Assembly (NCBI RefSeq): GCF_964204865.1
Contig: NC_135260.1
Span: 5,704,001-5,768,000, forward strand
Reading direction: 5' to 3'
DNA length: 64,000 nt
From: Styela clava
Lineage: Eukaryota; Chordata; Ascidiacea; Stolidobranchia; Styelidae
The translations under genes were made by a program, and so were the position numbers. This document shows, one piece after another, positions 113 to 64,000 of the stretch. The notes below the pieces were generated by a model that worked only from the letters and a program-made list of their open reading frames with translations, had not been told where the DNA came from and did no database searches. Each line of letters begins with the position of its first letter. Position 1 is the first letter of the stretch.

Positions 113-2305
113 CATTTGGTATTGGTCTGAATGAAGCAGCACAATGCACTGACTGTCCAACTACAAAACTTGGAACAGAGAGCAAGAGTATCACATATGG
201 ACCAATTTATAAATACAACTGCTGGTGTGATTGGACAATACCAACAAGTATTGAGACAGATCATGAAACAGCAGTTGTTCTGTTGTTGCAGAATGTTTCA
301 CTGCCATTGACAACTGGTAGTGGACATACAGACTGCTCTGGAGAAATCAGATTCCCAAGTTAGATATATTTTAAAACTACTCAACTATTACTACACTACT
401 ACGTTATATACAATTCTAATATACAGAAACAATTAACAAAAAAAAACATTAATACCGGTAAATACAAAATTGTATCAATGCTTTTACAGGCACTGATGGA
501 TACAAATGTGAATTTGCAATCAACTACTGTCTTGTATTTGCAACTGCAGTAACCATTTGCAATATCAACAAAATCAGAGAGAAAATTCCAGTTGCAAATC
601 ACACCTGTGATTCAATTATTCCATGGAATAAAGCTGGAGGAAGTCCATATGAGATACAATACTATGCAGCAAACCGTGCTGATTACTCAAAATACTTCAC
701 AATACAATATCTTGTAATAGATTGCACACCAACAACATCTGCACTGAGTGAGTAATTTTTTTTTTATGCAATGCCTAATCATGTCTTATGCTCAAGTAAT
801 CACAGATATAGCAATCTATAAAGAACCATATTTATCACACCCGGGTGAGGTGGTGGGATGGGGGAACCTGAGATGTGTAACGTACAACAGGAGTGGGCAA
901 GGTTTTTGGACTAGGGGCCAGAAAGTTTGCCCACCTAGAATGACGGACCATGTAAGTATAACGTGAAAAGTTACATTTTATGAACGATACTTAGTGTTAC
1001 AAAAGCAAAAGTGGAAAACAATAAGCCTCGTGCCAAAACTAAATTAATCGTTTTAGTTTGGTTATGGCAGCATCAGGTGGGACAAATTAAACTACCAAAT
1101 AAGCCGGATTTAGTCCGCGGGCTGTAGTTTGCCCATGTCGGTCTTACAATGTCAACACAGTTTAAGTGTAACACCTTAACCACTAGGGTCAGGCGACCAT
1201 GCCCATATTGCTCTTGTTGAACAATATAACTCAATTTCAGGATGTGAGAATCAAACTTTTATTACAAAATTTTAGCCACGATAACTGAGCAAGCAACAAC
1301 AACTCATCCAAAAAATACATCATCTGATAAAATATACTTTGATTCAACCACTAAATCAACCAGAACATCTGGCAAAACTCAAAGTCCTATTAAAGACTGT
1401 GAATGCGACAGCACTGAAACATCACTGATCATTGCTATTCCAGTATCAGGAATTGCGGGTTTGACCATTGGAGTTTTGTTGACACTCATAATACCAAAGT
1501 AAGCATAGATGTTATAAATTATATGAATAACATTCATGCGCACAGTTACTCAAGTATGCTTGAATACAAGATATTAACAAAGTATTCAACCCAGTACTGT
1601 TAAGTCAGTTATATTCTTCATCTTCTGATTGTAAGACGATCAAAATTCTAACCCAGTCCAGTCTCAAGCTGCTAACCATGAGTTGACAAGATTTTGACCT
1701 CAACTCTCAACTCCACAAATAATAAAAATACCCACTGATTCTATCGCCTGATGTCTATTTTCTATTGAATCAAGTTGATTCGAAGTTTCAATCTAATTCA
1801 AAGTTTAAAGAAAAAACATAGTACTGAATCCAGATACTGCTGGATGACAATACTTTAACTATGGACACTGTGGAATTTGCAAACACTCTTAGTTTCATTT
1901 AAAAACGCTTATAACGATAGAATCTTGCAAACTCATTTCTTTAATAAAAACGACCATGTTTTCGATAACAGCCTCAAATACTGAATTCAAGTTTTTGTGT
2001 TGGGTCCCAGCGACGTAATGAAGCGGATGTCAAATTAAAAACGATCAAAAATCTTTCATTAACTTATATTTCTATCAAACACCAGATATTGCAACAACAA
2101 CGAAAAGAAACCAAAATACAAAGATTCAATGGAAATGGGAAGCATTCAACATCAGCAGCCAACTGTCCATGAACGAACAACATATGAAAACTACACACCA
2201 ACATCAGATGAAAGTGGATATGAAGTTCCGAATCAAGTTGATAACAAGAATGAACAACAATACGAGGTTATAATACCTGGAAAGGAATATCAATATGACA
2301 ACTGA
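113..2305 (+). CDS. Unit A: CUB-like receptor, 5'-partial
   Basis: Exons 2-5 at 113-358, 490-747, 1276-1498 and 2086-2305; the signal-peptide exon lies before the window. Exons 2 and 3 encode a CUB-like domain: CTDC, then ITYGP and NCWCDWTIPTS (the Y..N.C.C.W.I pattern of CUB domains), DCSGEIRFP, then KCEF, NYCLVFA, TICNI, HTCDSIIPW and LVIDC, ten cysteines in all. Exon 4 encodes a Thr-rich stalk with a DCEC motif and one helix starting SLIIAIPVSG. Exon 5 encodes the tail, with YENY, one SGYEVP module, QYEVI and EYQYDN, ending in TGA at 2303-2305. The exon 2 donor is GTTAGA, weaker than the GTAAGT/GTGAGC of most units, but unit K has the same form. No frame break is visible. The ectodomain and introns resemble unit J closely. 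Type I membrane protein at the cell surface is inferred from topology; the ligand is unknown. Confidence 0.85.
888..1141. mobile_element. hAT-type MITE in intron 3 of unit A
   Basis: Starts CAGGAGTGGGCAAGG and ends TTTGCCCATGTCGG, imperfect inverted ends of hAT type, with GC-rich ends and no coding capacity. Flanks are cgtacaa and cttacaa, a slightly decayed target duplication. This copy lacks about 55 bp from its middle that the copy in unit B has. The element sits at the same intron position in units B, F, G and J, so it was there before those duplications. Confidence 0.7.
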
Positions 2306-5392: not shown

Positions 5393-8293
5393 ATGTGGAA
5401 ACATTCAAAACCCTTCAATATCAAATGGATGTTCATCCAGATAATTGGTGAGATCTTACTTACATAAAGTTTTTACATCGTTACAGTTGTTTGTGTGACT
5501 GTAATGTGATCCGAATCTAATTTGTTAACAGCAAATTTTATTATAAAAAAAATATTTCCTATGAATTTACATCCAGATCCAAAGACAATAATTTTAAGAT
5601 CACATTTTGATAATATTAATATGATTTTCTAATTTCTCAAATGTTTAAAGACATGAATAAAAAAGTATTATATACATTAATAGCTGAAGACTTTGTACGT
5701 GTTACAGATATAAGGGCATTTCTAACTTTGCGACCCTTCATCAGAATATTGAAGATTTTCAACAAGTAAAATTTAACTTTCGAATGCAATTGATCCAGTT
5801 TTTGTATTCCTTGTAGTACTTACCATTGGTCTGAGTGGAGCCCAAAAATGCACTGATTGTCCCAGTGCAATACTTGGAACCGAAAGCAAGAGCATAACAT
5901 ATGGACCAAGTAATAAGCGCAACTGCCAATGTGATTGGACAATACCAACAAGTATGGACACAGATCATGAAACTGCAGTTGTTATGTTGTTACAGAATGT
6001 TTCATTGCCTTTGACAACAGATGTTGGCAGTAGTACAGAGTGCTCTGGAGAAATCAGATTCCCAAGTAAGTCCAATTCTTTTAAACAAAGGATACATTAG
6101 TTACTAGATCACAATTATTGGCCACAGCCACAGCCCGCCGCCAGAATTTCCAAAACCGGGGTTGTTCAAAATCTTTAACAGCTTCGGTGTGTAACGCCGA
6201 CGAAAACAATAGGCAGTTTTAGCAAAAGTAGGCATGTAAATTTGTACACAATAACATCTGGTACTCTCCTGTTTATCCAGTAATTTTCAAAAGAAGGTGG
6301 GCGTTGAATCTGAAACCCCATTCTGGCTGCGCTACTGTCCAAATATTAGATTGCCTGATACCACTAATAATTTATTCAAGAATACTAATGTGCTTTTTAC
6401 AGGCACTAATGTATACAAATGTGATCTTGTAGGCAACTACTGTCTTGCATTTGCAACTGCATCAAGCATTTGCAACATCAACAAAATCAGAGAGAAAATT
6501 CCAGTTGCAAATCACACCTGTGATTCAATCATTTCATGGAATAAAGCTGGGGGAAGCCCATACAAGATACAATACTATGCAAAATACTTTGCTGGTTACA
6601 CAAAATACTTCACAATACAATATCTTGTAATCGATTGTAGACCAACAACCACACCTGCACTCAGTGAGTAATTTTCGTTATTTTAGACAGTGCTCAATTG
6701 AGTCTTATGCTCAAGTAATCACAGATATACCAATCTATAAAGAACCATATTTATCACACCCGGGTGAGGTGGTGGAATGGGGGGAACCTGAGATGTGTAA
6801 CCTACAACAGGAGTGGGCAAGGTTTTTAGACTAGAGGCCAGAAATTTTGCCCACCCAGAATGGCGGGCCATGTTAGTATAACATAAAAAGTTACATTTTA
6901 TGAACGATACTTAGTGATACAAAAGCAAAAGTGGAAAACAATAAGCCTCATGCCAAAACTAAATTAATCGCAATCTCAACAAATTCTTTGAAGTATTTTT
7001 TAGCTAAAATATCAAAAATTTAAAAATTTAGTTTTAGTTTGGTTATGGCAGCATCAGGTGGGACAAATTAAACTACCAAATGAGCCGGATTTGGCCCGCG
7101 GGCTGTAGTTTGCCCATGTCGGTCCTACAATGTCAACACAGTTTAAGTGTAACACCTTAACCACTAGGGTCAGGCGACCATGCCAATATTGCTCTTGTTG
7201 AACGATATAACTCAATTTCGGGATGTGAGAATCAAACTTTCATTACAAAATTTTAGCCACGATAACTGAGCAAGCAACAACAACTCATCCAAAAAATACA
7301 TCATCTGATAAAATATACTTTGACTCAACCACTGAATCAACCAGAACATCTGGCAAAACTCAAAGTCCTATCAAAGACTGTGAATGCAACAGCACTGAAA
7401 CATCACTGATCATTGCTATTCCAGTATCAGGAATTGTGGGTTTGACCATTGGAGTTTTGTTGACATTCATAACACCAAAGTAAGCATAGATGGTATAAAT
7501 TAGATGAATATCATTTATGCGCACAGTTACTCAAGTATGCTTGAATACAAGATATTAACAAAGTATTCAACCTAGTACTGCTAAGTCAGGTATATCTTCA
7601 TCTTCTGATTGTAAGACGATCAAAATTCTAACCCAGTCCAGTCTCAAGCTGCTAACCATGAGTTGACAAGATTTTGACCTCAACTCTCAACTCCACAAAT
7701 AATAAAAATACCCATTGATTCTATCGCCTGATGTCTATTTTCTATTGAATCAAGTTGATTCGAAGTTTCAATCTAATTCAAAGTTTAAAGAAAAAAACAT
7801 AGTACTGTATCCAGATACTGCTGGAAGACAATATTTTAACTATGAACACTGTGGAATTTGCAAACATTTTTAGTTTCATTTAGAAATGCTTATGAGGATA
7901 GAATCTTGCAAACTCATAATTTTAATAATAACTAAGTCCGACCATGTTTTCGATAGCAGCCTCAAATACTGAATTCAAGTTTTTGTGGGGGGCCCAGTGA
8001 GGTAATGAAGCGGATGTCACAATTAAAAACGATCAAAAATCTTTCATTAACTTATATTTCTATCAAACACCAGATATTGCAACAACAACAAAAAAAAACC
8101 AAAGAACAAAGATTCAATGGAAATGGGAAGCATTCAACATCAGCAACCAAATGTTCACAAACGAACAACATATGAAAACTACACACCAACATCAGATGAA
8201 AGTGGATATGCAGTTCCGAATCAAGTTGATAACAAGAATGAACAACAATACGAAGTTATAATAACTGGAAAGGAATATCAATATGACAATTGA
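5393..8293 (+). CDS. Unit B: CUB-like receptor, intact
   Basis: Five exons: 5393-5447, 5817-6065, 6403-6663, 7257-7479, 8074-8293; predicted 335 residues. Signal peptide from MWKHSKPFNIKW; the hydrophobic segment runs into exon 2 up to about residue 27. Ectodomain residues ~28-190 carry the ten framework cysteines, with NCQCDWTIPTS and HTCDSIISW. The loop after VSLPL has one codon more than unit A. The stalk is Thr/Ser-rich with DCECNS; the helix starts SLIIAIPVSG. The tail has YENY, a single module in which YEVP has become YAVP, QYEVI and EYQYDN. All splice sites are GT-AG and phases match the family. The loss of Glu after the module tyrosine may weaken that docking site (inference). Confidence 0.88.
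6808..7122. mobile_element. hAT-type MITE in intron 3 of unit B
   Basis: Fuller version of the element seen in unit A: CAGGAGTGGGC at the left, TTTGCCCATGTCGG at the right, flanked by acctacaa and tcctacaa (7 of 8 match), the 8-bp duplication expected for hAT insertion. Non-coding. Confidence 0.75.
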
Positions 8294-12469: not shown

Positions 12470-15400
12470 ATGTGGAAACATTCAAAACTCTTCAAATGCA
12501 AGTGGTTGTTTATGCAGATAATTGGTGAGATCTTACTTACATTAAGTTTAGTTACACAGTCTGCTGTTACACAACCAACTGTGATGGGTATTATTAGTTG
12601 TTATTCGAAAGTTTCAAATTGATTACAATTACAGTTATTTGAAATTGTCTTACCAAATTATAATAAGCAACTTCTTTAAAATCAAATCGCGGAAAAATGA
12701 GGTTCTTTAACTTTTGTTTTCACAACATATTTCACATCCAGATTCAATATGAAAATATTATATAATTTTAACTACTTCGACTTTTAAATAACTCGAATGT
12801 TTAAAATAGGAATAATTAAGTTTTATACAATTATTCATGGATTTAAGAATCTGTAATACAATTGAAAAAGTATTAATGAAAAATATATTTGATTTATATA
12901 CTATTTTCAATTAAAAAAAAATGTTATACTGCAAATGAATAACTCAATTCCTTTTTAGCATTTAGTATTGGTCTGAATGAAGCAGCACAATGCACTGATT
13001 GTAAAGACACCATACTTGGAACAGAGAGCCAGAATACCACATATGGACCAAGTAATGAATACAACTGCAATTGTGATTGGACAATACCAACAAGTATGGA
13101 CACAGATCATGAAACTGCAGTTGTTCTGCTGCTACAAAATGTTTCACTGCCAATGACAACAATGAGTAGCAGTAGTCCGGACTGCACTGGAACGATCAGA
13201 TTCCCAAGTAAGTACAATACTTGAATATGCTAGATCCATTAAATACTAAATCACAATTATCGGTCGACAGACATGGCTGCAGTCAAGATTTTTCAAAAGG
13301 GGGTGTTTAAAATCATTAATAACCATGTAGAGCTGACGAAAACAATAGGCAGTTTTAACAAAAGTATGCATGTAAATTTGTACACAATAACAGCTGGTAC
13401 TCTTCTGGTTATCCTGTCTTTTTTAAAAGGGTCTTCTGGTTATCCTGTAATTTTTGAAAGGGGGAGGGCCAGGGATGGCCATTTCCGAATACTAAACTAT
13501 TCCGAATACATTCTAAAATAATGTTTTCGAATCTGGAATTCCGAATACATTCTAAAATCGAAAATAAAACATTTTTGTTTTAGTTCATTAAAACCCAGTA
13601 AATTAGGAAATAAGCTTCAAAAGGAATATCAGAATGAAGCCACAGACCAACAGTATATGTACACAAAGTAATTGATAGTTTATAGCTATCAATAAAAAAT
13701 AATAGCAACTTGCGACACAGTCAGTTTATTAAAATTATTCACTTTGTACAAATGACCATATGAAAAGATAGCCAAGGAGTTGGGGTGACGCTTTCTATTA
13801 TTGGTACCATGATATTACGATAATAGTCAAGTCTATTGACAAAAATACTACATGTATTCAGATAATTGTGTATATTTTCTGTGAGTAATCAAATTTATTG
13901 GCAATACAGGCAACTGAAACAAGCCACAACAATCGAAAATCCATTATGTCTTTAAAAATTCTAATATTTAAGCTTAGAGTATTCTACTACCTACCAGTAT
14001 ATTTGTATATTAATTTATGTTAACCAAATTGTTAATATGTGTAACATATTGTTGTGTTTGAAATTAGAAATAAATTAACAGAGAATAGATGACCACCACT
14101 GCCAGCCGCGCAGCCAGGATTTTCGAAATCGGAAATTCCCATTGCCGCCTGTAACACCCACCGCGATTCCGCGCTCGTTGAAAGAGCCGTCTTTTCAGCG
14201 TATAATGATCATCCTGTTACATAAAATATTCAATCCATGACAACTACGAGATTCTAAAATATCTTTATATATTAATTTAATGTGTACAACGTAACTCGCG
14301 GTTGCTTCTTCTTACGTCAAAAAAAAACATTATTATTCGGTCCACAGCGATCTGTGACCTAAAACTACGAGATAAACCGCCTGATGTATTTAATTTTAAT
14401 ACGTATTTTTGCAAACTTGCCAACTCGGTATCGCCGTTAGAAAAATCTCAAATAATGATATAAAATCCTGTTAAGTGTAGTGTATAATTCATTTCATACA
14501 ATGAATATACATACAAAGTTGAGCAGTAAATTAAAAATACATATTTATTGCCGCGATTATGCCACCTGTTAAAAGAGTCGACTTTTACAACAAATAATAT
14601 AACAACGAATATATATTTTTCTGTTGTGCAAAGTGATGGTTCGTGACCGATACGGGCCTATTTAAAATGTCTTGTTTTATTAATTTAATTGTCTCCAATT
14701 TAACCTTCGGTTGCGTCGACAAAATAAAATCCTCACCACTCTTATATACCATTGCAATCCGCGATCATAAGAATAAAAACGTGTGGTAAACTGCCCGATT
14801 AAATAATGTTCAGATCCGTATTTTGCGAATTCGGCAAATATTTAGATGTAGGCCTACTTGTTAACAGTGACTCCACTCCACTCAATCGAAATGCTGACAC
14901 TCTGATTATTTTTAGATAAAACCGTTCGAAAAATCCATAAATCTGCTGTAACATCTCAGAGTAAAATTTATTTCATCACAATAAAATTGATTGAATATAC
15001 TTTGGATTAATTATATTAAATACATCCTCACAAACCGGGAAAAAGTCGCGTTTCAAATATTCGACGGCAATTCAAAGTAATGAATAATCAGGCAAATCCC
15101 GCCCTCAATTCGTGACGATATGTTTCTAAACGCCCGACCAAACATAATATGTACGGTAGGCCCACAAAATTTTGCGATTTTCCCTGCCTAGAAAAGCATT
15201 TTATAAATTTTCACGGGTTTCAATAAAACTTATATTGTTTGCGGTTTTATTTTCAGTATTTTAAATTGCCGCTTTACAATCAAAAAGTTGCGTTGTCTTC
15301 AGAAACTCGCCGCCGATGATTGTATTTACCAGATTCACAATTCTGTGCGCGTACGTTATCGTGGAACAAATTTGTGGAAAATTTTCGTTTTAGAGAAAGT

Positions 15401-16461
15401 AACACAAACGTAAAAGCGTTTACGGCCCAAATAACACGTTACGCTGATGGGTGATGAAAACAATCACGCGCAAGTTTCTATCGAGAATGTTTTCATTCAA
15501 CGGAAACGTCTTGGAAGCGGCGTCGAAAATGTGTGACGTCACACAAATATTCGATATTCTTATGAACGCTAATTCCGATATTCGAATGACGAGATATTCG
15601 AATACATTCGAATACTTTATTCGAATTGGCCATCCCTGGGGAGGGCGTTGAACCTGAAACCCCTATCTGACTGCGCTACTGTCTACAAATATCAGATTTC
15701 CTGGTACCACTAATAATTTATTCAAAAATACTAATGTGCTTTTTACAGGCACTGATGGACACAGTTGTTATTTCACAAGCAACTACTGTCTTGTATTTGC
15801 AACTGCATCAACCATTTGCAACATCAGCAAAATCAGAAAGAAAATTTCAGTTGCAAATCACACCTGTGATTCAATCATTCCATGGAATAAAGCTGGAGGA
15901 GGCCCATACAAGATACAATACTATGCAGGAAACCATGCTGGTTACACAAAATACTTCACAATACAATACCTTGTGGTGGACTGCAGATCTCCAACAGCCA
16001 CTTTTAAACCAAGTATCGGTAAGTCATAAATAGCAAAGAAACATTTAGTTCAGCAGTAAAACATCCAAACCTAAAAATGAACTTTTTTCTTTCAAATTAC
16101 AGCAACAACAAATGGATGGGAAACAACAACAAAAAATTCAGAAGAAATTTCAACAACACTAAAAGATGAACAAATTTCAAAGGATAAAAGTAATGAAAGT
16201 TGATTTGTCAAAACAATAGCAATAATCCAATACACAATGACATTAAATTTAAACTTATTATAAATTCCAGTTACCAAAGCTGCGCAGCAAACAACAATAT
16301 CGGATTCAGACAGAACTGTATCTCATTCTACAACTGATTTGGACAAAAACGCCACCGTTACCACGGGAACCAATGGAAGTTCTGCTTCACTGATGATCGG
16401 AATTCCAGTGTCAGGAATAGTTGGTTTTATCTTTGCAGCTTTGTCAATGTTTTTCATATAA
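12470..16461 (+). CDS. Unit C: tailless CUB-like membrane protein
   Basis: Exons 12470-12524, 12959-13207, 15749-16018, 16103-16189, 16271-16461; predicted 283 residues. Signal peptide MWKHSKLFKCKW, complete CUB-like domain (CTDCKDT variable triplet, NCNCDWTIPTS, SCYF, TCDSIIPW, VVDC), then a stalk in two exons (NGWETTTK, then a Thr/Ser-rich part) and a helix SLMIGIPVSGIVGFIFAAL. Where units E and H read ATA CAA AG|GT, this copy has ATA TAA, so translation stops at 16459-16461 directly after the helix. No tail exon exists before the next unit; a hAT-type element and unrelated sequence occupy that place. Intron 2 is about 2.5 kb because of a hAT insertion. The product should be a membrane-anchored ectodomain with no signalling tail, which could act as a decoy or co-receptor (inference), or the gene may be decaying. 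Confidence 0.82.
13470..15638. mobile_element. hAT-type element in intron 2 of unit C
   Basis: 2,169 bp with perfect 12-bp inverted ends CAGGGATGGCCA and TGGCCATCCCTG, flanked on both sides by GGGAGGGC (13462-13469 and 15639-15646), a perfect 8-bp target duplication. Sub-terminal regions hold repeated TTCGAAT/GAATAC words, plausible transposase sites. No long frame, so non-autonomous. The same intron in units B and F lacks it. Confidence 0.9.
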
Positions 16462-20262: not shown

Positions 20263-22635
20263 ATGTGGAAACATTCAAAACTCTTCAATTGCAAATGGTT
20301 GTTTATGCAGATAATTGGTGAGATTTTGCTTACCGATACATAAAAGTTACACCTGAAAAAATAAGTTGCCATTTGTCAAACAAAAACATAATAGCCTGAA
20401 GAATTCTCATCCGAAGTCATTTAATGGAATAATAATTTTAATACTAGATTTTCATTATTATGGGATTGCTCAATTGTTTAAAAATAGGAATAATAAAGTT
20501 TTATATAATAACCTTGAATAACCATCAAAAGTATTTGCAAGATATTTCAATTTGATTAAAAAACTTATTTCTTTGTAGCACTAAGCATCAGTCTGAATGA
20601 AGCAGCACCATGCACTGATTGCTCCCATTCAATACTTGGAACAGAGAGCAAGAATATCAAATATGGACCAAGTAATGAACACAACTGCAACTGTGATTGG
20701 ACAATACCAACAAGTATGGACACAAATCATGAAACTGCAGTTGTTCTGTTGTTACAAAATGTTTCACTGCCAAGAACAATTGGTACTGGAAGTACAGAAT
20801 GCTCTGGAGCAATCAGATTTCCAAGTAAGCCGTATACTATACTATTTTACTAATACTATTCTAATATGAAGGAACAATAAAAAAACACATTAGTAAATAC
20901 ATAATTGTATCAATACTTTTACAGGCACTGATTCTCACAGATGTGATTTTGCAAGAAACAACTGTTTTGCATCTGCAACTGCATCAACCATTTGCAACAT
21001 CAACAAAATCAGAGAGAAAATTCCAGTTGCAAATCACACCTGTGATTCAATCATTCCATGGAATGAAGCTGGGGGAAGTCCATATGAGATACGATATTAT
21101 GCAAAAAACTTTGCTGGTTACACGAAATACTTCACAATTCAATATCTTGTGATAGATTGTAGATCTTCAACAACCACACCAAAACCAGGTAAGCAATATA
21201 CTTTACTGTTCGCAAATCTACACCAACACACATTTTTCTTATTCTCATACAAAGGTTAAATTTATATTCAGCAACAACAATGCAACAGAAACAAACAACA
21301 AAGGTTCCATTAACACTTGCAAGAATTATATGTGAAACAACAACTTTTGAAACCGCCAAAACTACTGGTATGAATGAATTAACAAGTTCAAGATTAATTT
21401 TGTATGTGAATAATCGATTAGGCAAACAAAATTAGTTACCTCCATATTGGTACACACACTTCTGGAGTGCCGTTGTTTTTAAGATTAGATACAGTTTGTA
21501 TGTAAACAACAGACTCGTGTGCAATGTTTGGCAGTTTAACACAGGGTGGCAAAATTGGGTACTCCCGTAGTATATGTATAATGGTAGGGTTAGGTCGTTT
21601 TTTTCCAATTTTCCAATATTCCAATATTCTAGTTCTATTACTATTTCGGGAACTGTCTATGTTAGACAAGTGAATATACCCCCTGCCCATAGACTTCAGT
21701 CCCTTTACACAAGTTATTTACCTACAAAATCAGTTACCTCCATATTGGTACAAGTACTTCTGGAGCGCACAAAATTGGGTAGGCAATGCCGAACCTTCCA
21801 AACAATAGTAGATCCTTACTCAGAGGTGACTGCTTGTTGTGGCCTTGTTGAGTGCGTAAGGCGCATAATTAGTCTTATAAAACGATTCAAAAATTGTGTA
21901 AAATTACAAGAAGCATAATAATTTAATTCTAGAAATGGCTACAAACACAAAACAAACTGCCAGTGATAAAAAATGTATTGAAAACTCAGATTCTACATCC
22001 CTAACAATGATTGCAGTAGGTGCAGCATCAGGATTAATTGTCGGAATCATCATTGGAGTTCTGACAACTTGCTTGATGCAGAGGTGAAATTACAGTTTCG
22101 TAAAATTAAGATATTTTAAGGTTAATATACTATTCAGTTTAGCTTGCTTGATGCTCAAAAAATTAAACACCTTCAAAACCTTCTCTAAGGGCTAACCAAT
22201 GCAATATCACCAGAATTTTGTTATTACTGAAAAGAATGTTTTTATTTTTGACGGAGATTGCCTTTTACACTCATTTGGTGGACAATCTGCTCAATACAAA
22301 ACAAAAAATCTTTATTTTGTATCATTTCAAATAAAATTAGTGAAACAAATAAAATTACATTGTTATTCCAGTCAAATAAATTATAAAAAGATCAGCGCAC
22401 CATAACACACATTATCAAAATTTATAGATTCTTGAGAAAAAAGAAATTGAAAAACTCAATGAAAACGCAGAGCAGTCAACAGCATCAATATAACGCCATG
22501 AAAAATGCAGCATATGAAAATCATGAACCAGCTTCAAACGAAAACGGATACGAAGTTATAATTCCAGTTGATAATAAGAATGAAAGACCATATGAAGAGA
22601 TAAAATGTGGGAAGGAATCTGAATATGAAAAATAA
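20263..22635 (+). CDS. Unit D: divergent CUB-like receptor, intact
   Basis: Six exons: 20263-20317, 20579-20824, 20925-21188, 21272-21367, 21933-22083, 22428-22635; predicted 339 residues. Signal peptide MWKHSKLFNCKW and a standard ten-cysteine CUB-like domain (NCNCDWTIPTS, RCDF, TCDSIIPW, VIDC). The later part is the most divergent in the array: a stalk in two exons with an extra cysteine (IICETTT), a helix of different sequence (AASGLIVGIIIGVL), a basic juxtamembrane RFLRKKKLK, and a tail with only one diverged module (NGYEVI) plus AAYENH, PYEEIK and SEYEK. Tyrosine spacing is kept although the sequence is not. The intron between the stalk exons holds MITE copies. All junctions are GT-AG and in phase. 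Confidence 0.85.
21421..21471. mobile_element. MITE family 1, right-end fragment
   Basis: Only the terminal part is present (acaaaattagttacctccat through cttctggagtgcc), in the intron of unit D just before a full copy. Confidence 0.5.
21558..21768. mobile_element. MITE family 1 in intron of unit D
   Basis: Ends GGTACTCCCGTAGTATATG and CTTCTGGAGCGC; the interior matches family members elsewhere (actgtctatgttag, cctgcccatag). Non-coding. Confidence 0.72.
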
Positions 22636-34873: not shown

Positions 34874-35819
34874 TCCTACAATGTCAACACAGTTTAAGTG
34901 TAACACCTTAACCACTAGGGCCAGGCGACCATGTCCATATTGCTCTTGTTGAACGATATATCTCAATTTCAGGATGTGAAAATCAAACTTTTATTACAAA
35001 ATTTTAGCAACGGTAACTGAGCAAGCAACAACAACAGCAACTCATCAAAAAGATAAATCATCTAATAAAATATACTTTGACTCAACCACTGAATCAACCA
35101 GAACATCTGGCAACGTTCAATGTTCAACTGAAAACACAGAATGCAGCAGTTCCCAAACATCACTGATCATTGCTATCCCAGTATCAGGATTCATGGGTTT
35201 GATCATTGGAGCTTTGTTAATGTTCATAATACCAAGGTAAGCATAGATATTGTATAATAAATGAATGTCAATGAAAATGCATAAATTACCAAATGGGCAA
35301 TCTATCAAGTACAAAAAAAATGTGTGCCACTCTCCACCTGAGAGTGATACCTGCTTCAAGGATGACAAAATTCAAATACAAGTTTGAAAAAATAAAAACC
35401 AATCTCAGCCAATTTTGTGTAACAAATTATTTTGTTAAAAATGTTGCCATTTGCAAAATCCAAGTTTCATGGCAAACTTTTGGATACATTTATTGACTCT
35501 GATGACAAAAAAATTTATATTAACTACAGTTTCGGATCCAATTCCAACTAAATATGCCAAACTTGACTGTTTATCGTAGATTCAGTGAAGTCAGAAGCAG
35601 ATATTAAAACAGCAAATGATTACCGGTAGTCTCAATTACAGTCAATACATATAGTAATCATTAACTTTGATTATATTTCTATCAAACACCAGGTATTGCA
35701 ATAACAACAAGAAGAAACCAAAGAACAAAGATTCAATGGAAATAGGAAGCATTCAACATCAGCAGCCAACTGTCCATGAGCAAACAACATATGAAAACTA
35801 CATACCAACATCGGATGAA

Positions 35820-35954
35820 AGTGGATATGAATATCTGAATCAAGTCGATAAAAAGAATAAACAAAGTGGATATGAATATTTCAATCAAGTCGATGAAAAG
35901 AATGAACAAAGTGGATATGAAGTTCCGAAACCAGTTGATAACAAGAATGAACAA
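35820..35954 (+). repeat. Three 45-bp tail repeats in unit F
   Basis: Modules SGYEYLNQVDKKNKQ, SGYEYFNQVDEKNEQ and SGYEVPKPVDNKNEQ. The first two replace YEVP by YEYL or YEYF, a different SH2-type context. Confidence 0.88.
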
Positions 35955-36002
35955 CAATATGAGATTATAACAACTGGAAAGGAATATCAATATGACAATT
36001 GA

Positions 36003-38677: not shown

Positions 38678-41145
38678 ATGTGGAAACATTCAAAACTCTT
38701 CAATTGCAAATGGTTAATTATGCAGATAATTGGTGAGATCTCACTTACATGAACACTTTTGTATTTCAAATTTGACAAAGAAACGACTTTTGATATTCAC
38801 TTCGGAAATATTTATCAATCAAATTCTCAGCCTTATTCAACCAAAAATATATTAATTTTGATAGCTTACACTCTTCAATTTCCCAATGTTTGAAAAATTG
38901 GATAGTGAATAATTAGATCATATACCGTGGAGAGAAGACTTATTCAACTCACAATATTTAAAATCTGTATTTTTGAATATGAGATATTTTTCTAGCACTC
39001 GAAATTGGTCTGAATGAAGCAGCAAAATGCATGGATTGCTCCAATATCATACTTGGAACAGAGAGCAAGAATATAACACATGGACCAAGTAATAAATACA
39101 ACTGCAACTGTGATTGGACGATACCAACAAGTATGGACACAGATCATGAAACAGCAGTTGTTCTGTTGTTACAAAATGTTTCACTTCCAATAACAACAGG
39201 TAGTGCGAGTACTACAGACTGCTCTGGAGATATCAGATTTCCAAGTAAGCTATATTATACAATTTTACTAATGCTATTCTAACATGAAGGAACAATAAAA
39301 AAACACATTAGTAAATACATAATTGTATCAATACTTTTATAGGCTCTGATGCATACAAATGTGAATTTCAAAGCAACTACTGTCTTGCATTTGCAACTGC
39401 ATCAACCGTTTGCAACATCAGCAAAATCAGAGAGAAAATTCCAGTTGCAAATCACACCTGTGATTCAATCATTACATGGAATGAAGCTGGAGGAAGCCCA
39501 TACAAGATACAATACTATGCAAAAAACTCTGCTGGTTACACAAAATACTTCACAATACAATACCATGTAATAGATTGCAGACCAACAACCACACCTGCAC
39601 TCAGTGAGTAATTTCATTTTTTATGTAATGCTTAATCATGTCTTTTGCTCAATGAATCACAGATATACCAATTTATAAAGAACCATATTTATCACACCCG
39701 GGTGAGGTGGTGGGATGGGGGGAACCTGAGATGTGTATCGTACAACAGGAGTGGGCAAGGTTTTTAGACTAGAGGCCAGAAATTTTGCCCCCCTAGACCT
39801 AGCATGACCACCATGTAAGTATGACGTAAAAAGTTACATTTTTTGAACGATACTTAGTGTTACAAAAGCGAAAGTGGAAAACAATAAGCCTCGTGCCAAA
39901 ACTAAATTTAATCGCAATCTCAACAAATTCTTTAAACTATTTTTTAGCTAAAACAACAAAATTTAGTTTTAGTTTGGTTATGGCAGCATCAGGTGGGCCA
40001 AATTAAATTACCAAACAAGCTGTATTTGGCCCGCGGGCTGTAGTTTGCCCATGTCAGTCCTACATCGTCAACACAGTTTAGGTGTAACACTTTAACCACT
40101 AGGGCCAGGCGACCATGTCCATATTGCTCTTGTTAAAACGATATAACACAACTTTAGGATGTGAGAATCAAACTTTTATTACAAAATTTTAGCAACGGTA
40201 ACTGAGCAAGCAACAACAACAGCAACTCATCAAAAAGATACATCATCTAATAAAATATACTTTGACTCAACCACTGAATCAACCAGAACATCTGGCAACG
40301 TTCAATGTTCAACTGAAAACACAGAATGCAGCAGTTCCCAAACATCACTGATCATTGCTATCCCAGTATCAGGATTCATGGGTTTGATCATTGGAGCTTT
40401 GTTAATGTTCATAATACCAAGGTAAGCATAGATATTGTATAATAAATGAATGTCAATGAAAATGCATAAATTACCAAGTGGGCAATCTATCAAGTACAAA
40501 AAAAATGTGTGCCACTCTCCACCTGGGAGTGATACCTGCTTCAATGATGACAAAATTCAAATACAAGTTTGAAAAAATAAAACCCAATCTCAGCCAATTT
40601 TGTATAACAAATTATTTTGTTGAAAATGTTGCCATTTGCAAAATCCAAGTTTCATGGCAAACTTTTGGATACATTTATTGACTCTGATGACAAAAAAATT
40701 TATATTAACTACAGTTTCGGATCCAATTCCAACTAAATATGCCAAACTTGACTGTTATTGTAGATTCAGTGAAGTCAGAAGCAGATATTAAAACAGCAAA
40801 TGATTACCGGTAGTCTCAATTACAGTATCAAGTAAATACATATGGTAATCATTAACTTTGATTATATTTCTATCGAACACCAGGTATTGTAACAACATGA
40901 AGAAACCAAAGAACAACAATTCGATGGAAATGGGAAGAATTCAACATCAGCAGCCAACTGTCCATGAAAGAACAACATATGAAAACTACACACCAACATC
41001 AGATGAAAGTGGATATGAATATCTGAATCAAGTCGAAAAAAAGAATGAACAAAATGGATATGAAGTTCCGAATCCAGTTGATAACAAGAACGAACAACAA
41101 TATGAGATTATAACAACTGGAAAGGAATATCAATATGACAATTGA
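38678..41145 (+). CDS. Unit G: CUB-like receptor, intact
   Basis: Exons 38678-38732, 38996-39244, 39343-39603, 40193-40421, 40884-41145; predicted 351 residues. Signal peptide MWKHSKLFNCKWLIMQ; CUB-like domain with CMDCSNI, NCNCDWTIPTS, KCEF, TCDSIITW and VIDC. The loop before DCSGDIRFP is one codon longer than usual. The stalk has two cysteines, QCSTENTECSSS; the helix starts SLIIAIPVSGFMGL. The tail carries YENY, two modules (SGYEYL, NGYEVP), QYEII and EYQYDN. From exon 4 through the 3' flank it is nearly identical to unit F, but the ectodomain differs, so the two were joined by a recent partial duplication or conversion. Confidence 0.88.
39746..40057. mobile_element. hAT-type MITE in intron 3 of unit G
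   Basis: CAGGAGTGGGCAAGG to GCCCATGTCAG, flanked by cgtacaa and cctacat; same insertion as in A, B, F and J. Confidence 0.72.
41008..41097 (+). repeat. Two 45-bp tail repeats in unit G
   Basis: SGYEYLNQVEKKNEQ followed by NGYEVPNPVDNKNEQ. One module fewer than the otherwise near-identical tail of unit F. Confidence 0.85.
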
Positions 41146-46386: not shown

Positions 46387-47800
46387 ATGAGGAAACATTC
46401 AAAACTCTTCAATTGCAAATGGTTGTTTATGCAGATAGTTGGTGAGATCCCACTTACATAAATAGTTCCAAATCAAGAAATAAATGTACATTTGTTACCC
46501 AAAAACATAGTAGCCTGATGAATTCTCATCCAAAGTCATTCATGAAATAATAATTTTAATATTAGATTTTCATTAATATAAGATTTCTAAATTGTTTAAA
46601 AAGAAGAGTAATGGAGTTTTATACAATATAATTCTCAACCATGTATTAGATTGAGAAAATATCAATTCTATACATATAAACTTGTTTTGGGCTTTATGAG
46701 ACTGATGAAAATTGGATGGATTTCGCAATGTTGTAATTGTAAAAACTTATTTCTTTATAGCACTAAGCATCAGTCTGAATGAAGCAGCACCCTGCACTGA
46801 TTGTTCAAATCCAATACTTGGAACAACCACTTCTAAACCAAGTAAATCTTAAACAGCATAAAAAATTCAGTTCAAAAGTAAAACATCCAATCTTGAAATA
46901 AACTTTCCTTTCAAATTACAGCAACAACAAATGGATGGGAAACAACAACAAAATATCCAGAAGAAATTTCGACAACACTCAAAGCTGAACAGACTACAAA
47001 GCTGAACGGTCTACAAACGGAAATTCCGACAACACTGAAAGCTGGACCAAATACAAAAGACAAAAGTAATGAAATTTTATTTGTCAAAACAATAGCAATT
47101 ATCCAATACACAATCATAATAAAAACTAAACTTCATAAATTTCAGTTAGTGGAGCTGAGCAGCAAACAACACTATCTGATTCAGACAGAACTGAATCTCA
47201 TTCAACAACTGATTTGGACAAAAACATCACAGTTACCACGGGAACCAATGGAAGTTCTGATTTATTGACAATTGCAATTCCATTGTCAGGAATAGTTGCT
47301 TTTATCTTGGGAGCTTTGTCAATCTTTGTCATACAAAGGTAACAAGTAAAACAACACTTAGTAGCAATAATTTCTCCACAATACTTTCACTTTGAATATT
47401 GTTTTGAAAATTTGGCGCAATTTCAAGGTTTCGTTTGGATGTGGTTCAACAATATGCTAATAAATATTTTTATTAATATTTTCAACCCAGGTATTGCAAC
47501 AAAAACAAGAAACCGAAAAAGAAAGATTCAATGGAAATTGGAAGCATCCAACATCAGCAGCCAACTGTCCATGAACGAACAACATATGAAAACTACACAC
47601 CAACATCAGATGAAAGTGGATATGAAGTTCCGAATCAAGTTGATAACAAGAATGAACAAAGTGGATATGAAGTTCCGATTCCAGTTGATAACAAGAATGA
47701 ACAAAGTGGATATGAAGTTCCGATTCCAGTTGATAACAAGTATGAACAACAATATGAGGTTGTGAGAAGCGGAGCAGAATACCAATATGAAAATGCGTGA
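46387..47800 (+). CDS. Unit H: receptor lacking the CUB-like domain
   Basis: Exons 46387-46441, 46761-46841, 46922-47065, 47146-47338, 47491-47800; predicted 260 residues. The signal peptide begins MRKHSKLFNCKW (Arg for Trp). Exon 2 starts normally (SLNEAAPCTDCSNPILGT), then jumps in frame to the last codons of exon 3 (TTSKP) before a GTAAAT donor, so about 150 residues with eight of ten cysteines are gone. The junction lies in a shared ACA/AACAAC word. The stalk exon is enlarged by an internal duplication (ISTTLKAEQTT...IPTTLKAGPNT). Helix SDLLTIAIPLSGIVAF; tail with YENY, three YEVP modules, QYEVV and EYQYEN. The result is a signalling-type tail on a short Thr-rich stem. It may be a real variant or a deletion product still in frame. 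Confidence 0.82.
47615..47749 (+). repeat. Three 45-bp tail repeats in unit H
   Basis: SGYEVPNQVDNKNEQ, SGYEVPIPVDNKNEQ, SGYEVPIPVDNKYEQ. Repeats 2 and 3 are almost the same in DNA, which suggests a recent expansion separate from that in E. Confidence 0.88.
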
Positions 47801-53349: not shown

Positions 53350-55278
53350 ATGTGGAAACATTCAAAACTCTTCATTTGGAAATGGTTGTTTATCCTGATA
53401 ATTAGTGAGATTCTACTTACATAAAAAAGTACATTGTATGTATGTATAAAACTATAAATGTATAAATGTGTTTTAAAATTCATAGTATTTTCAATTAAAA
53501 AAAAAAAGTTATATTGCAAATGAATAACTCAATTCCTTTTTAGCATTTAGTATTGGTCTGAATGAAGCAGCACAATGCACTGATTGTAGAAACCCACAAC
53601 TTGGAACAGAGAGCAAGAATATCACATATGAACCGAGTAATGAAATCAACTGCAACTGTGATTGGACAATACCAACAAGTATAGACACAGATCATGAAAC
53701 TGCAGTTGTTCTATTGTTGCAAAATGTTTCATTGCCAAGGACAACAGATAGTCTAAGTACAGACTGCTCTGGAGAAATCAGATTTCCAAGTGAGCTATAT
53801 TATATTACCACTCAACTATTACTATACTATTGTAATACACAGCAACAATTATCAAAAACATTAGTGAATACAAAATTGTATCAATACATTTACAGGTACT
53901 GCTTCTCACAAATGTGAATTTGCAATCAAATACTGTCTTGTATTTGCAACTGCATCAACCATTTGCAACATCAACAAAATTAGAGAGAAAATTCCAGTAG
54001 CAAATCACACCTGTGATTCAATCATTCCATGGAATTATGCTGGAGGAAGCCCTTACAGGATACAATACATTGCAAAAAACTTTGCTGGTTACACAAAATA
54101 CTTCACAATACAATATCTTATAGTAGATTGCAGACAAACAACAACCACACCTGCACTATGTGAGTTATTAATATATTTCATATGACGCGTATCTGAGAGC
54201 CTTGTGCTCCAAACGAGGCCCTGTTGAAGCAGTCACTGATATGAAAATATGTGAAATTTGAATAGTATAGCCAGAATCGATGCAGTTTGACATTGACAAT
54301 TCTATTTAGAAGTGCATTAAGTCGAGATGTGTAATCTGCAATGTCAACACAGTCTGGTTAAACGGTTTAACAGCAATGCTAATGCGCCCATATTGCTATT
54401 TGAAGTCAATATAACCCAATTTTACAACCTAGGATTTGAACGTCTATTTCAAAATTTTAGCCACAGTTACTGGACAGGAAACAACAACAACAAAAAGTTC
54501 AACATCTGGGAAGCAATATTCTGATTCAACCTCAACATTTGAAAACATCCAATGTCCCAGTGAATGCAGCAGTACCCAAACATCGATGATCATTGCTATT
54601 CCAGTATCAGGAATTGTGGGTTTGATCATTGGATTTTTGTTGATGTTCATTATACTAAGGTAAGCATAGATGTCATATTCAAGATGAATATTATTGGAAA
54701 TATTGGAAGCTTCAAAGCAATTTAATAACACAGAGTTCTTATTAGGGTCAGAAATATTCTTTATCTTCCAAATGTGCTGCATCCGAACTTTTTGGGCTCC
54801 AGGTTCCAACTCTGAGTTTTACTTTACATGAAAAAAACCTATTATTGATAATAATTTAAAATAAAATCTGCGATAAGCTAGTTTCAGAAAAATTTGATGT
54901 TATCTACAGCTGGATAAAAATACTAATGTTACGTTAGGTTAGAAAGTCAATTCATCAGCCTCTAACTCTATCAAATCCATAATTTTATCTCCAATCTATT
55001 TTTCATCAAACACCAGGTATTGCAATAACAACAACAAGAAACCAAAAAACAAAGATTTAATGGAAATGAGAAGCATTCAACATCAGCAGCCAACTGTCCA
55101 TGAACGAACAACATATGAAAACTACACACCAACATCAGATGAAAGTGGATATGAAGTTCCGAATCAAGTTGATAATAAGAAACAAAGTGGATATGAAGTT
55201 CCGAATCAGGTTGATGACAAGAATGAACAACAATATGAGGTTGTGAGAAGCGGAACAGAATATCAATATGACAATTGA
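53350..55278 (+). CDS. Unit I: CUB-like receptor, intact
   Basis: Exons 53350-53404, 53544-53789, 53896-54159, 54461-54659, 55017-55278; predicted 341 residues. Signal peptide MWKHSKLFIWKW. The last base of exon 1 is A instead of G, so the junction codon is Thr, not Ala, and the donor reads A|GTGAGA. CUB-like domain with CTDCRNP, NCNCDWTIPTS, KCEF, TCDSIIPW, IVDC. The stalk is shorter than in other single-exon types and carries QCPSECSS; the helix starts SMIIAIPVSG. The tail has YENY, two modules (the first shortened by one residue), QYEVV and EYQYDN. Intron 3 (300 bp) has no hAT MITE, unlike A, B, F, G and J, so this copy branched off separately or lost it. Confidence 0.87.
55144..55230 (+). 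repeat. Two tail repeats in unit I
   Basis: A 42-bp and a 45-bp copy of the YEVP module; the first ends DNKKQ rather than DNKNEQ. Confidence 0.82.
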
Positions 55279-57174: not shown

Positions 57175-57345
57175 GGTACTCCAGAAAGTATGTGACCAAG
57201 ATGACGTATACCAGAATGTAGTATGTGTACCAGGTTAGGGTTAGGCCATAATTTTATTCTAATTTTCCTTATTTTAGTTCCATTGCGAGGTACACATACT
57301 AGGTTTCGGTGTCCACCATCTTTGCTCACATACTTCGGGAGTACC
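57175..57345. mobile_element. MITE family 2 in spacer I-J
   Basis: GGTACTCCAGAAAGTATGTG to CATACTTCGGGAGTACC; shorter than the copy at 52309, lacking part of the middle. Confidence 0.65.
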
Positions 57346-58228: not shown

Positions 58229-60989
58229 ATGTGGAAACATTCAAAACTCTTCAGTTGCAAATGGTTGTTTGTGCAGATAATTGTTGAGATCTTACTTACA
58301 TTAAGTTTAGTTACACATTCTGCTGTTACACAACCAACTCTGATGGGTATTATTAGTTGGTATTCGAAAGTTTTAAATTATTTACAATTACAGTAATTTG
58401 AAATTGTCTCATCAAATCATAATAAGTAACTTCTTTAAAATCAAATCGCGGACAATAAATTGAGGTTATTTAACTTTTGTTTTCAAAACATATTTCACAT
58501 CCAGATTCAATATTAAAATATTATACAATTTTAACTACCTCGTCTTTCAAATACACGAATGTTTAAAAAAGGAATAACTAGGTTTTATACAATTATTCAT
58601 GGATTCAAGAATCTGTAATACAATTGAAAAAGGATTATAAAATATATTTGATTTATAAATGTGTTTTAAAATTCGTAGTACTTCCAATTAAAAAAAATAA
58701 GTTATATAGCAAATGAATAACTTGATCCCTTTTCAGCATTTAGTATTGATCTGAATGAAGCAGCACCCTGCACTGATTGCTCTAATATCATACTTGGAAC
58801 AGAGAGCAAGAATATCACATATGTCCCAAGTAATGAATACAACTGCAACTGTGATTAGACAACACCAACAAGTATGGAGACAGATCATGAAACTGCAGTT
58901 GTTCTGTTGTTACAAAATTATTCATTGCCAAAGACAACTGGTACTGGAATTACACGCTGCTCTGGAGAAATCAGATTTCCAAGTGAGCTATATTATCATA
59001 CCACTCAACTATTACTATACTATTGTAATACACAGCAACAATTGTTAAAAACATTAGTGAATACAAAATTGTATCAATACATTTACAGGTACTGATTCTC
59101 ATAAATGTGAATTTGCAATCAACTACTGTCTTGTATTTGCAACTGCAGTAACCATTTTCAATATCAACAAAATCAGAGAGAAAATTCCAGTTGCAAATCA
59201 CACCTGTGATTCAATTATTCCATGGAATAAAGCTGGAGGAAGTCCATATGAGATACAATACTATGCAGCAAACCGTGCTGATTACTCAAAATACTTCACA
59301 GTACAATATCTTGTAATAGATTGCACACCAACAACATCTGCACTGAGTGAGTAATTTTTTTTTTATGCAATGCCTAATCATGTCTTATGCTCAAGTAATC
59401 ACAGATATACCAATCTATAAAGAACCATATTTATCACACCCGGGTGAGGTGGTGGGATGGGGGGAACCTGAGATGTGTTACCTACAACAGGAGTGGGCAA
59501 GGTTTTTAGACTAGGGGCCAGAAAGTTTGCCCACCTAGAATGACGGACCATGTAATTATAACGTGAAAAGTTACATTTTATGAACGATACTTAGTGTTAC
59601 AAAAGCAAAAGTGGAAAACAATAAGTCTCGTGCTAAAACTAAATTAATCGCAATCTCAACAAATTCCTTGAACTATTTTTAGCTAAAATATAAAAATTTA
59701 GTTTTAGTTTAGTTTAGTTGGCAGCATCAGGTGGGCCAAATTGAACTACCAAACGATCCGGATTTGGCCCGCAGGCTGTAGTTTGCCCATGACAGTCCTA
59801 CAATGTCAACACAGTTTATGTGTAACACCTTAACCACTAAGGCCAGGCGACCATGCCCCTATTGCTCTTGTTAAAACCCTATAACTCAACTTTGGGATGT
59901 GAGAATCAAACTTTTATCACAAAATTTTAGCAACGGTAAGTGAGAAAGCAACAACTCATCAAAAAGATACATCATCTTATGAAACATTCCCAACCACTGA
60001 ATCAACCAGAACCACTGACAACATTCAATGTTCCATTGAAGACTGTGAATGCACCAGCACCCAAGTATCACAGAATACAGAAGAATCAGAGAATACAGTA
60101 CCAAACTATTCTCAAACATCACTGATTATTGCTATTCCAGTGTCAGGAATTATGGGTTTGATCATTGGAGCTTTGTTGATGTTTATAATACCAAGGTAAG
60201 CATAGATGTTATAAATTATATGAATACCATTTATGTTACTCAAGTATGTTTGAATACAAGATATCAACAAAGGATTCAACCCAGTACTGTTAAGTCAGTT
60301 ATATTTCTATCTTCTGATTGTAAGACAATCAAAATTCTAACCCAGTCCAGTCTCAAGCTGTTAACCATGAGTTGACAAGATTTTGACCTCAACTCTCAAC
60401 TCCACAAATATTAAAAATGACCACTGATTCTATCGCCTGATGTCCATTTTCTATTGAATCAAGTTTTACCAATCTAATTCAAAGTTTAAAAAAAAAAACT
60501 TGGTACTGTATCCAGATACTGTTCGATGACAATATTTTAACTATGAACACTGTGCTTTGCAAACTCATAATTTTAATAATAACTAAGTCCGACCATGTTT
60601 TCGATAGCAACCTCAAATACTAAATTCAAGTTTTTGTGTGGGGCGAAGTGATGTAATCAAGTGGATGTCAAAATTAGAAATGTTCAAAAATCTTTCATTA
60701 ACTTATATTTCTATCAAACACCAGATATTGCAAATACAACAAGAAGAAACCAAAGAACAAAGATTCAATGGAAATGGGAAGCATTCAACATCAGCAGCCA
60801 ACTGTCCATGAACGAACAACATATGAAAACTACACACCAACATCAGATGAAAGTGGATATGAATATTTCAATCAAGTCGATAAAAAGAATGAACAAATTG
60901 GATATGAAGTTCCGAATCCAGTTGATAACAAGAATGAACAACAATATGAGATTATAACAACTGGAAAGGAATATCAATATGACAATTGA
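58229..60989 (+). pseudogene. Unit J: CUB-like receptor pseudogene
   Basis: Exon-equivalents 58229-58283, 58737-58982, 59089-59346, 59931-60195, 60725-60989. Three independent lesions: the exon 1 donor G|GTGAG has become G|TTGAG (58284); the conserved Trp of CDW is TAG at 58856-58858; and the cysteine of TICNI is Phe in exon 3. Exons 4 and 5 remain open: the stalk is the longest of its type (QCSIEDCECTS plus an extra Gln/Glu/Asn-rich stretch), then helix SLIIAIPVSGIMGL and a two-module tail (YEYF, YEVP) with QYEII and EYQYDN. Close to unit A in exon 3 and intron 3. No standard protein is expected from this copy. Confidence 0.85.
59488..59795. mobile_element. hAT-type MITE in intron 3 of unit J
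   Basis: CAGGAGTGGGCAAGG to GCCCATGACAG, flanked by cctacaa on both sides; same insertion as in A, B, F and G. Confidence 0.74.
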
Positions 60990-63252: not shown

Positions 63253-64000
63253 ATGTGGAAACATCCAGAACTCTTCAATTGCAAATGGTTGTTTATGCAG
63301 AAAATTGGTGAGATCATAATTTCATAAATAGTTACAAATCAAGAAATAAATGTACATTTGTTAACCAAAAACATAATAGCCCAATGAATTCTCATCCAAA
63401 GTCATTAATGAAATAATAATTTTAATCTAGATTTTCAATATAATAGGATTGCTCCATTGTTTAAAAACTAGAATAATAAAGTTTTACACATTATAACTTT
63501 CAAATCCTGTAACAAGATAGAGAAAATATCAAATATATATGTATAAAATGTTTTTGGCTTTGTGAGAATGCAAAAATATTTGATGGATTTTGGAATGTGA
63601 TTGAAAAACTTATTACTTCATAGCACTTAGCCTCAGTCTGAATAAAGCATTGTCATGTGCTGATTGTCCAACTACAAAACTTGGAACAGAGAGCAAGAAT
63701 ATCACATACGGACCAAGTAATAAATACAACTGCAACTGTGATTGGACAATACCAACTAGTATGGACACAGATCATGAAACTGCAGTTGTTCTGTTGGTAC
63801 AAAATGTTTCATTACCAAAGTCAACTGGTTCTGGAAGTATAGATTGCTCTGGAAGAATCAGATTCCCAAGTTAGCTATATTAATATGTTTCATTATTACT
63901 ATACTACCATACGCTATTCTAATATACGACAACAATTTAAAAAATACTTTTGCAGGCACTGGTTCTAATAAATGTGAATTTCCAACCAACTACTGTCTTG
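63253..64000 (+). CDS. Unit K: CUB-like receptor, 3'-partial
   Basis: Exons 63253-63307, 63624-63869 and the first 45 nt of exon 3 (from 63956), running off the window. Signal peptide MWKHPELFNCKWLFMQK with a Lys near the hydrophobic core, then SLSLNKALSCADC in place of the usual NEAAxCTDC. NCNCDWTIPTS and DCSGRIRFP are intact, and exon 3 begins TGSNKCEFPTNYCL. The exon 2 donor is GTTAGC, like unit A. No frame break in the visible part. Confidence 0.82.

Follow-up and report, generated by a model that had tools for sequence, protein, structure and literature searches.

The 64,000-nucleotide stretch of the Styela clava genome analysed here (C14:5704001-5768000, hereafter the window; unit coordinates are window positions unless prefixed with C14) carries eleven units of a tandem gene array that probably encodes a lineage-specific, paired-type phosphotyrosine receptor family with a CUB-derived ectodomain, defence or self/non-self recognition being the most likely use. 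The typical predicted product consists of a signal peptide, one ectodomain encoded by exons 2 and 3, a Thr-rich stalk, one helix and a tyrosine-rich tail, and the gene models thus agree with the original prediction of a type I membrane protein with such a stalk, a single helix and such a tail. This reading draws on gene anatomy, array extent, tail classes, the relationship to CUB and the patchwork history of the units, from which we infer that the genes would be expressed and their products displayed at the cell surface, where they would meet a ligand, become phosphorylated and pass on a signal of one sign or the other, with a probable role in immunity. No description of this receptor family was found in a literature search among the titles and abstract openings listed (bioRxiv outside its scope).

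Searches of the window with the five exons as individual queries (tblastn) located the eleven units, all on the + strand, with an exon-2 to exon-2 spacing of 4.9-7.8 kb. Unit 8 excepted, the best matches per unit range from about 1e-56 to 1e-33 for exon 2, from 1e-60 to 1e-25 for exon 3 (units with the whole exon in the window) and from 1e-11 to 1e-5 for exon 1, so that the repetition is not due to chance. The spacing of 4-8 kb and the recurring exon plan and phases predicted earlier are borne out, as are the eleven units running in one direction; however, these eleven make up less than a third of an array that extends far beyond the window; the window lies toward the distal end of the array. 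Genome searches over the 376.6-Mb assembly (379 contigs) place about 39-40 units in ~259 kb at C14:5.5285-5.7874 Mb, and every exon match within C14:5.528-5.788 Mb is on the + strand. The 258 kb surveyed as array sequence (the window, 184 kb to its left and 10 kb to its right) contain 38 exon-2 loci (exon 2 is full at 33 of them and short at five), together with 32 exon-3 loci and 27 tail-exon matches, all tallied from + strand matches only and with one long tail counted twice. A stop or frameshift in exons 2-3 is present at three of the 33 full-exon-2 loci, one of the 33 having no exon 3 in the surveyed sequence. An additional unit lies outside the 258 kb at C14:5.7864 Mb, and an additional exon 3 at C14:5.7815 Mb possibly belongs to the unit at 5.7761 Mb. 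Family members were also found as a reversed cluster at C14:6.162-6.190 Mb, as a divergent cluster at C14:19.04-19.06 Mb (L031) and as a single gene at C13:18.934 Mb (L029) with exons 2 to 5 recognisable.

All units follow one plan, in which exon 1 encodes the signal peptide, exons 2 and 3 the ectodomain, exon 4 the stalk and transmembrane (TM) helix and exon 5 the tail, with junction phases 1-1-1-2. The gene models were built from sequence and splice consensus alone, and AG and GT were sought in the expected phases, so the splice sites express consistency with the plan and not independent proof of it. The units of the window are as follows.

113..2305, + strand: unit 1, class A tail (exon 2 113-358, exon 3 490-747, exon 4 1276-1498, exon 5 2086-2305)
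C14:5703614, + strand: exon 1 of unit 1, 5' of the window, with which unit 1 reads as a full gene
5393..8293, + strand: unit 2, full gene, class A (exon 1 5393-5447, exon 2 5817-6065, exon 3 6403-6663, exon 4 7257-7479, exon 5 8074-8293)
12470..16461, + strand: unit 3, tail-less (exon 1 12470-12524, exon 2 12959-13207, exon 3 15749-16018, exon 4 16271-16461)
20263..22635, + strand: unit 4, full gene, class C TM and tail (exon 1 20263-20317, exon 2 20579-20824, exon 3 20925-21188, exon 4 21933-22083, exon 5 22437-22635)
26689..28160, + strand: unit 5, open, class A' TM, three YEVP repeats; exon 1 looked for and not found (exon 2 26689-26934, exon 3 26997-27260, exon 4 27506-27698, exon 5 27851-28160)
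33057..36002, + strand: unit 6, exon-3 frameshift near 34283-34308 (exon 1 33057-33111, exon 2 33598-33843, exon 3 34145 to about 34415, exon 4 35008-35236, exon 5 35693-36002)
38678..41145, + strand: unit 7, full gene (exon 1 38678-38732, exon 2 38996-39244, exon 3 39343-39603, exon 4 40193-40421, exon 5 40884-41145)
46387..47800, + strand: unit 8, SHORT class, CUB-less (exon 1 46387-46441, exon 2' 46761-46841, exon 4 47146-47338, exon 5 47491-47800)
53350..55278, + strand: unit 9, full gene (exon 1 53350-53404, exon 2 53544-53789, exon 3 53896-54159, exon 4 54461-54659, exon 5 55017-55278)
58229..60989, + strand: unit 10, stop in exon 2 and one exon-3 Cys replaced (exon 1 58229-58283, exon 2 58737-58982, exon 3 59089-59346, exon 4 59931-60195, exon 5 60725-60989)
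63253..64000, + strand: unit 11, running past the window end (exon 1 63253-63307, exon 2 63624-63869, exon 3 63956-64000 and beyond)
C14:5771577-5771880, + strand: tail exon assigned to unit 11, 2.5 kb after its TM exon

Six of the eleven (units 1, 2, 4, 7, 9 and 11) read as full genes, although unit 1 has its exon 1, and unit 11 its 3' half, outside the window.

The array sets several TM and tail types on a common ectodomain: classes A/A', B and C, a tail-less form and a CUB-less one. A single tail type for all units, as first supposed, does not hold; unit 4 already differs from its neighbours in both TM and tail. Class A/A' tails carry YENY and a variable number of 45-bp (15-residue) tyrosine repeats, SGYEVPNQVDNKNEQ; the YxxP count is one to three in the window units of this class with a tail, and the repeat number ranges across the array from one to about two dozen, the unit at C14:5613830 having a tail exon (C14:5616183-5617428) for 414 residues, among them 28 tyrosines arranged in 15-residue repeats. 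Class B, as defined by its TM exon, comprises nine units at C14:5.540-5.589 Mb with a TM of their own and a tail of their own type ending LYAVVQK...SIYAVVNKDKK; SIYAVV or SLYAVV is present in five of the six parsed tails, and both of the units scanned have a candidate exon 1 peculiar to the class. Its tails were matched for eight of the nine units, one being interrupted and one stopping near its end, and the tail matches (nine loci) are all on C14; three of the nine units (C14:5545221, C14:5559969, C14:5570042) were missed or misread by the tail finder and were judged from separate tail searches. Class C, with its own TM, is formed by unit 4 and two more units and has YEN, YEVI and YEEI (YENH, YEVI and YEEI in unit 4), and a further TM and tail type stands at the left edge of the array (C14:5528529). 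In unit 3 and its sister at C14:5675794 exon 4 stops directly after the helix, and for unit 3 no tail exon was detected. The SHORT class numbers five copies, unit 8 and four others, in which an in-frame fusion joins the start of exon 2 and the end of exon 3, so that the donor is kept and the domain is absent; the tail is open in four of them, and the fifth (C14:5629174) has a broken TM frame and a tail stop. Similar ectodomains thus stand on different signalling tails within one cluster, which is the arrangement of paired receptors. Distant genes of the family carry the related tail motifs IYAAVAKKG, TYSVVDKG and YSTVN, suggesting that the ancestral tail already had a Yxx[VL] motif close to its C-terminus.

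The ectodomain specified by exons 2 and 3 is about 155 residues long. Ten of its cysteines are conserved; nine do not vary in a 12-row alignment, and seven remain invariant once distant members join it. Weak genome matches led to the same two-exon domain in dispersed genes, two each on C1, C19 and C3, and the helix, the tyrosine tail or both are visible near four of the six (L042, L043, L045, L046). These genes show that the predicted receptor plan is not confined to the array, the same domain being recognisable in scattered places. L042, L044, L045 and L048 (two on C1, one on C19, one on C3) were detected at 43-86 bits by profiles from which the test row had been withdrawn (best of 2000 shuffles 11-14), the rows having been co-aligned before removal and L043 not being among them. 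L048, the C3 gene, whose exon 2-3 join was placed by guess, scores 31-43 bits against family profiles (best of 2000 shuffles about 11), including 31 bits against a profile of two array rows and two rows from the 19-Mb cluster (best of 2000 shuffles 11.3). The same gene matches the Pfam CUB model PF00431 at E 7e-4 and 20.3 bits, just under the cut-off of 21.4, and has a CUB-type start. It retains the N-terminal pattern C..G.I.SPxxP..Y....C.W.I of that family, and several genome CUB matches end near profile position 62-69, as does its own. L044 also matches a nematode CUB model weakly (E 0.023). A further locus, L047 (C13:14.844 Mb), showed no recognisable family exon and was taken as a chance match. 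Two other clusters of CUB matches were noticed in the genome, one at C3:15.714-15.810 Mb with single-CUB open frames of 145-161 amino acids and one at C19:9.355-9.389 Mb with multi-CUB frames mostly over 600 amino acids.

Since L048 belongs to the family and at the same time comes close to the CUB threshold, we conclude on this transitive evidence that the ectodomain belongs to a very divergent CUB lineage and is not a recognised CUB member. The CUB-like domain of the original prediction stands in this indirect form only. Profile-profile comparison (hhalign) of the family with ten CUBs from the genome gave a probability of 5% in register with the CUB N-terminus, the score of 21.34 narrowly exceeding all 120 column permutations (best 21.16); with distant members added the probability was 8% and the score exceeded 200 of 200 permutations. 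Four cysteines are usual in CUB domains, compared with ten here, and at least 150 matches elsewhere in the genome pass the Pfam CUB cut-off (150 of 350 candidates scored), none of the matches listed lying in the array. Among 12 ectodomains compared with Pfam (ten from the array and two from the 19-Mb cluster), no immunoglobulin (Ig) or sushi match was obtained; the whole unit-2 protein had no CUB match in Pfam, and a PDB sequence search did not recover the CUB identity of the ectodomain. Weak Pfam matches to Sigma_reg_N, MpPF26 and HisKin-conflict were attributed to chance and set aside.

The units have a composite history. Ten class A-tailed units share one inserted element in intron 3, and this segment descends from one ancestor. 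The element is about 250-310 bp long (886-1137 in unit 1, 6806-7118 in unit 2), its 3' end occurs at 11 places in the 258 kb, and its ends resemble those of a hAT-type miniature inverted-repeat transposable element. Among the ten units, for which intron-3 values were available in 36 of 45 pairs, nonsynonymous (dN) and synonymous (dS) divergence of exon 2 are both higher than intron-3 divergence in all 36 pairs, and exon-3 dS does so in 33 of 36. Exon 2 is the oldest segment (mean dN 0.161, dS 0.319 over all 45 pairs); mean dS is 0.190, 0.154 and 0.189 for exons 3, 4 and 5, and mean divergence of introns 1 to 4 is 0.212, 0.193, 0.077 and 0.172, introns 1-2 being aligned over only 50-70%. With intron 3 young, exon 2 oldest and the rest intermediate, the units are, as judged from these divergences, patchworks made by exchange or conversion of segments. 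Units 1 and 10, for example, are nearly the same in exon 3 (dS 0.055) and differ more in exon 2 (dS 0.22) and exon 4 (dS 0.16). On an ectodomain tree of 32 rows (30 from the array and two outgroups, without the frameshifted unit 6 and the truncated C14:5673796; the bootstrap had not settled), which is weakly resolved, the tail classes are not clades: 11 label changes are needed where the least possible is five, and class B needs at least two even when well-supported branches alone are counted.

Constraint differs along the gene. Over 13 units with all five exon matches, the broken units 6 and 10 included, the average ratio of nonsynonymous to synonymous differences (pN/pS) is 0.58, 0.55, 0.71 and 0.37 for exons 2 to 5, the tail being most constrained. 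Within the ectodomain the ratio approaches 1 in places, among them the surroundings of DWTIPTSMDTDH and AKNFAGYTKYFT, and low-divergence blocks occur in exons 2 and 3; read from these ratios, the pattern is one of constraint with relaxed patches and not of proven diversifying selection. The birth-and-death pattern suggested for the window is supported by stops, a frameshift, recent near-identical duplicates and amplification within the array. Units 10 and 6 are interrupted by a stop and a frameshift respectively, while calling unit 8 a truncated copy is too simple for a form that exists in five copies.

The array probably expanded through tandem duplication, accompanied by the death of genes and by exchange or conversion of segments from one unit to another, which left patchwork units with similar ectodomains on different tails. 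In the mechanism we propose, the CUB-derived domain would bind a surface or soluble ligand and, once receptors cluster, Src-type kinases would phosphorylate the tail tyrosines. The tail motifs resemble Src- and Grb2-type docking sites, and SH2 proteins could dock on the phosphorylated tail with a valency set by repeat number, the tail class setting the kind of signal; defence or self/non-self recognition would be the most likely use of such a system.

Repeated docking units of this kind are familiar from p130Cas/CAS, a cytosolic scaffold with a tandem YxxP substrate region in which repeat number sets valency; the likeness lies in the repeated YxxP units, the scaffold is not a receptor tail, and no sequence homology is claimed. 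The vertebrate paired receptors KIR, LILR, CEACAM, CD300 and PILR have Ig-fold ectodomains, and their activating forms use adaptors or an immunoreceptor tyrosine-based activation motif (ITAM). Their clusters share with the Styela array the tandem layout, related ectodomains on different tails and tail-less members, whereas the Styela genes have a CUB-derived domain in place of the Ig fold. Natural-killer receptor clusters of vertebrates likewise have a similar layout, the Styela array being built from a different outer domain. The Alr complex of the cnidarian Hydractinia also consists of clustered, fast-evolving type I receptors with tyrosine signalling motifs, but differs in its tandem Ig-like ectodomains and homophilic binding. 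The nearest described tunicate system that we found is fester/FcoR at the fuhc locus of Botryllus schlosseri, which is described as clustered type I receptors with dozens of loci and birth-and-death evolution (PMC12065747). FF/FcoR tails can bear immunoreceptor tyrosine-based inhibitory motifs (ITIM), hemITAM or core Yxx[ILV] motifs. The FcoR ectodomain is made up of an IgV domain, a sushi domain and two IgC2 domains, and of three haplotype regions two encode each FcoR gene as a pair with a fester gene (PMC12065747). Tunicate origin, clustering and ITIM/hemITAM-type tails are common to both; in contrast, the Styela ectodomain is a single unit, one divergent CUB without the IgV, sushi and IgC2 series, and its tails have tyrosine repeats in variable number.

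A more far-reaching proposal, which we regard as tentative and rather doubtful, is that the array represents a third kind of chordate paired receptor locus, founded on a degenerate CUB and not on Ig or C-type lectin folds. Through exchange, signalling parts of inhibitory type (YAVV), of docking type (YxxP/YxN repeats) or without a tail or an ectodomain would then be combined anew with recognition domains, and each gene's signal strength would be tuned by how many of the 45-bp repeats it has. Our confidence in it was lowered because the divergence data show a patchwork with no clean boundary between halves. If it were true, it would suggest that multi-tail receptor arrays arise repeatedly from different domains, here non-Ig with a KIR/LILR-like layout and ~40 genes, in tunicates, the sister group of vertebrates, whose self/non-self discrimination involves, in some of them, neither antibodies nor T-cell receptors. 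The locus offers a natural series of tails differing in the number of one putative phosphotyrosine repeat, and supplies concrete genes for work on expression, polymorphism and SH2 binding.

Several results speak against a paired-type receptor family with a CUB-derived ectodomain. The profile search of exons 2+3 against CUB models, proposed as a check together with the original prediction, matched none of the 12 ectodomains to PF00431 at E up to 10, and hhalign probabilities stayed at 4-13% across comparisons of the family with the ten genome CUBs. One distant member alone was equalled against CUB by 15 of 200 null scores, and the family profile placed just one of ten true CUBs above all 2000 shuffles, seven of the others being beaten by 1 to 56 shuffles and two by over 200. 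AlphaFold2 models of single exons (predicted local distance difference test 41.5 for exon 3 alone from 8 rows, 38.2 for exon 2 alone from 9 rows) are uninformative; being meaningless, they were disregarded, as was a Foldseek search with the exon-3 model that returned only noise (best E 4.0). As to history, only intron 3 (0.077) is distinctly young, and the values for exon 4, intron 4 and exon 5 (0.154-0.189) are close to those of exon 3 and introns 1-2 (0.19-0.21); separate histories for a recognition half and a signalling half were dropped on this account. Tail labels are clustered on the ectodomain tree, the 11 changes comparing with a shuffled mean of 17.3 and being matched in 0 of 200 shuffles, so tail switching has been limited. 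Loose ITIM patterns are found also in class A/A' (SGYEYL, SGYEVI, SGYEVL), and for this reason neither class A nor class B is called activating or inhibitory. The SHORT class copies, about 98-99% identical, are too young to show selection. Unlike many recognition receptors, the ectodomain showed no net positive selection (pN/pS 0.64 over 29 sequences, C14:5528529 and units without a usable exon 3 left out).

Many ascidians have polymorphic gamete self/non-self systems, and the array could encode gamete or egg-coat recognition receptors, acting in self-sterility or fertilisation and not in immunity. Birth-and-death evolution fits reproduction equally well, and a review of ascidian fertilisation contains the phrase 'CUB domain' (PMC9265791). 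The tyrosine-rich tails, which fall into several classes and have motifs like Src- and Grb2-type docking sites, are no less suited to somatic signalling receptors, and we consider this explanation unlikely. Drift-amplified receptors for ordinary adhesion or growth control on tunic or blood cells, with no recognition role, would account for the overall ratio of 0.64, for the low-divergence blocks of exons 2 and 3 and for homologues on C1, C3 and C19 that put the plan beyond the array; however, house-keeping adhesion genes would not usually form ~39-40 tandem units, some of them dead, with several classes of tail and a variable number of repeats, which makes such an origin improbable. A mostly non-functional array, recently amplified in tandem with few genes expressed, would explain the frameshift of unit 6, the stop of unit 10, the tail-less unit 3, the domain-less unit 8 and the interrupted class B tail elsewhere, but is very hard to credit with only three of the 33 full-exon-2 loci broken in exons 2-3, a tail pN/pS of 0.37 and more than half of the window units (6/11) reading as full genes. 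A phosphotyrosine receptor family used in defence or self/non-self recognition remains the reading that we prefer.

Some minor observations concern the surroundings of the array. Within it, a 487-amino-acid open frame at C14:5776539-5778000 (L028:8539-9999) is gag-like, as of a retroelement, by impression only, and had no Pfam match at E up to 0.1. Just to the left of the array, a frame at C14:5521057-5521602 (L009:1057-1602) with weak, below-cut-off TPR similarity is possibly a flanking gene. In the window an element starting CCCTTTCCGTGC is present in two copies on opposite strands, at 10161 and 29892. Elsewhere in the genome no COX1 match was found, and the tunicate origin is supported by a cellulose-synthase match on C9 with a GH6 match 2.0 kb away on the same strand, a combination that among animals is to our knowledge confined to tunicates.

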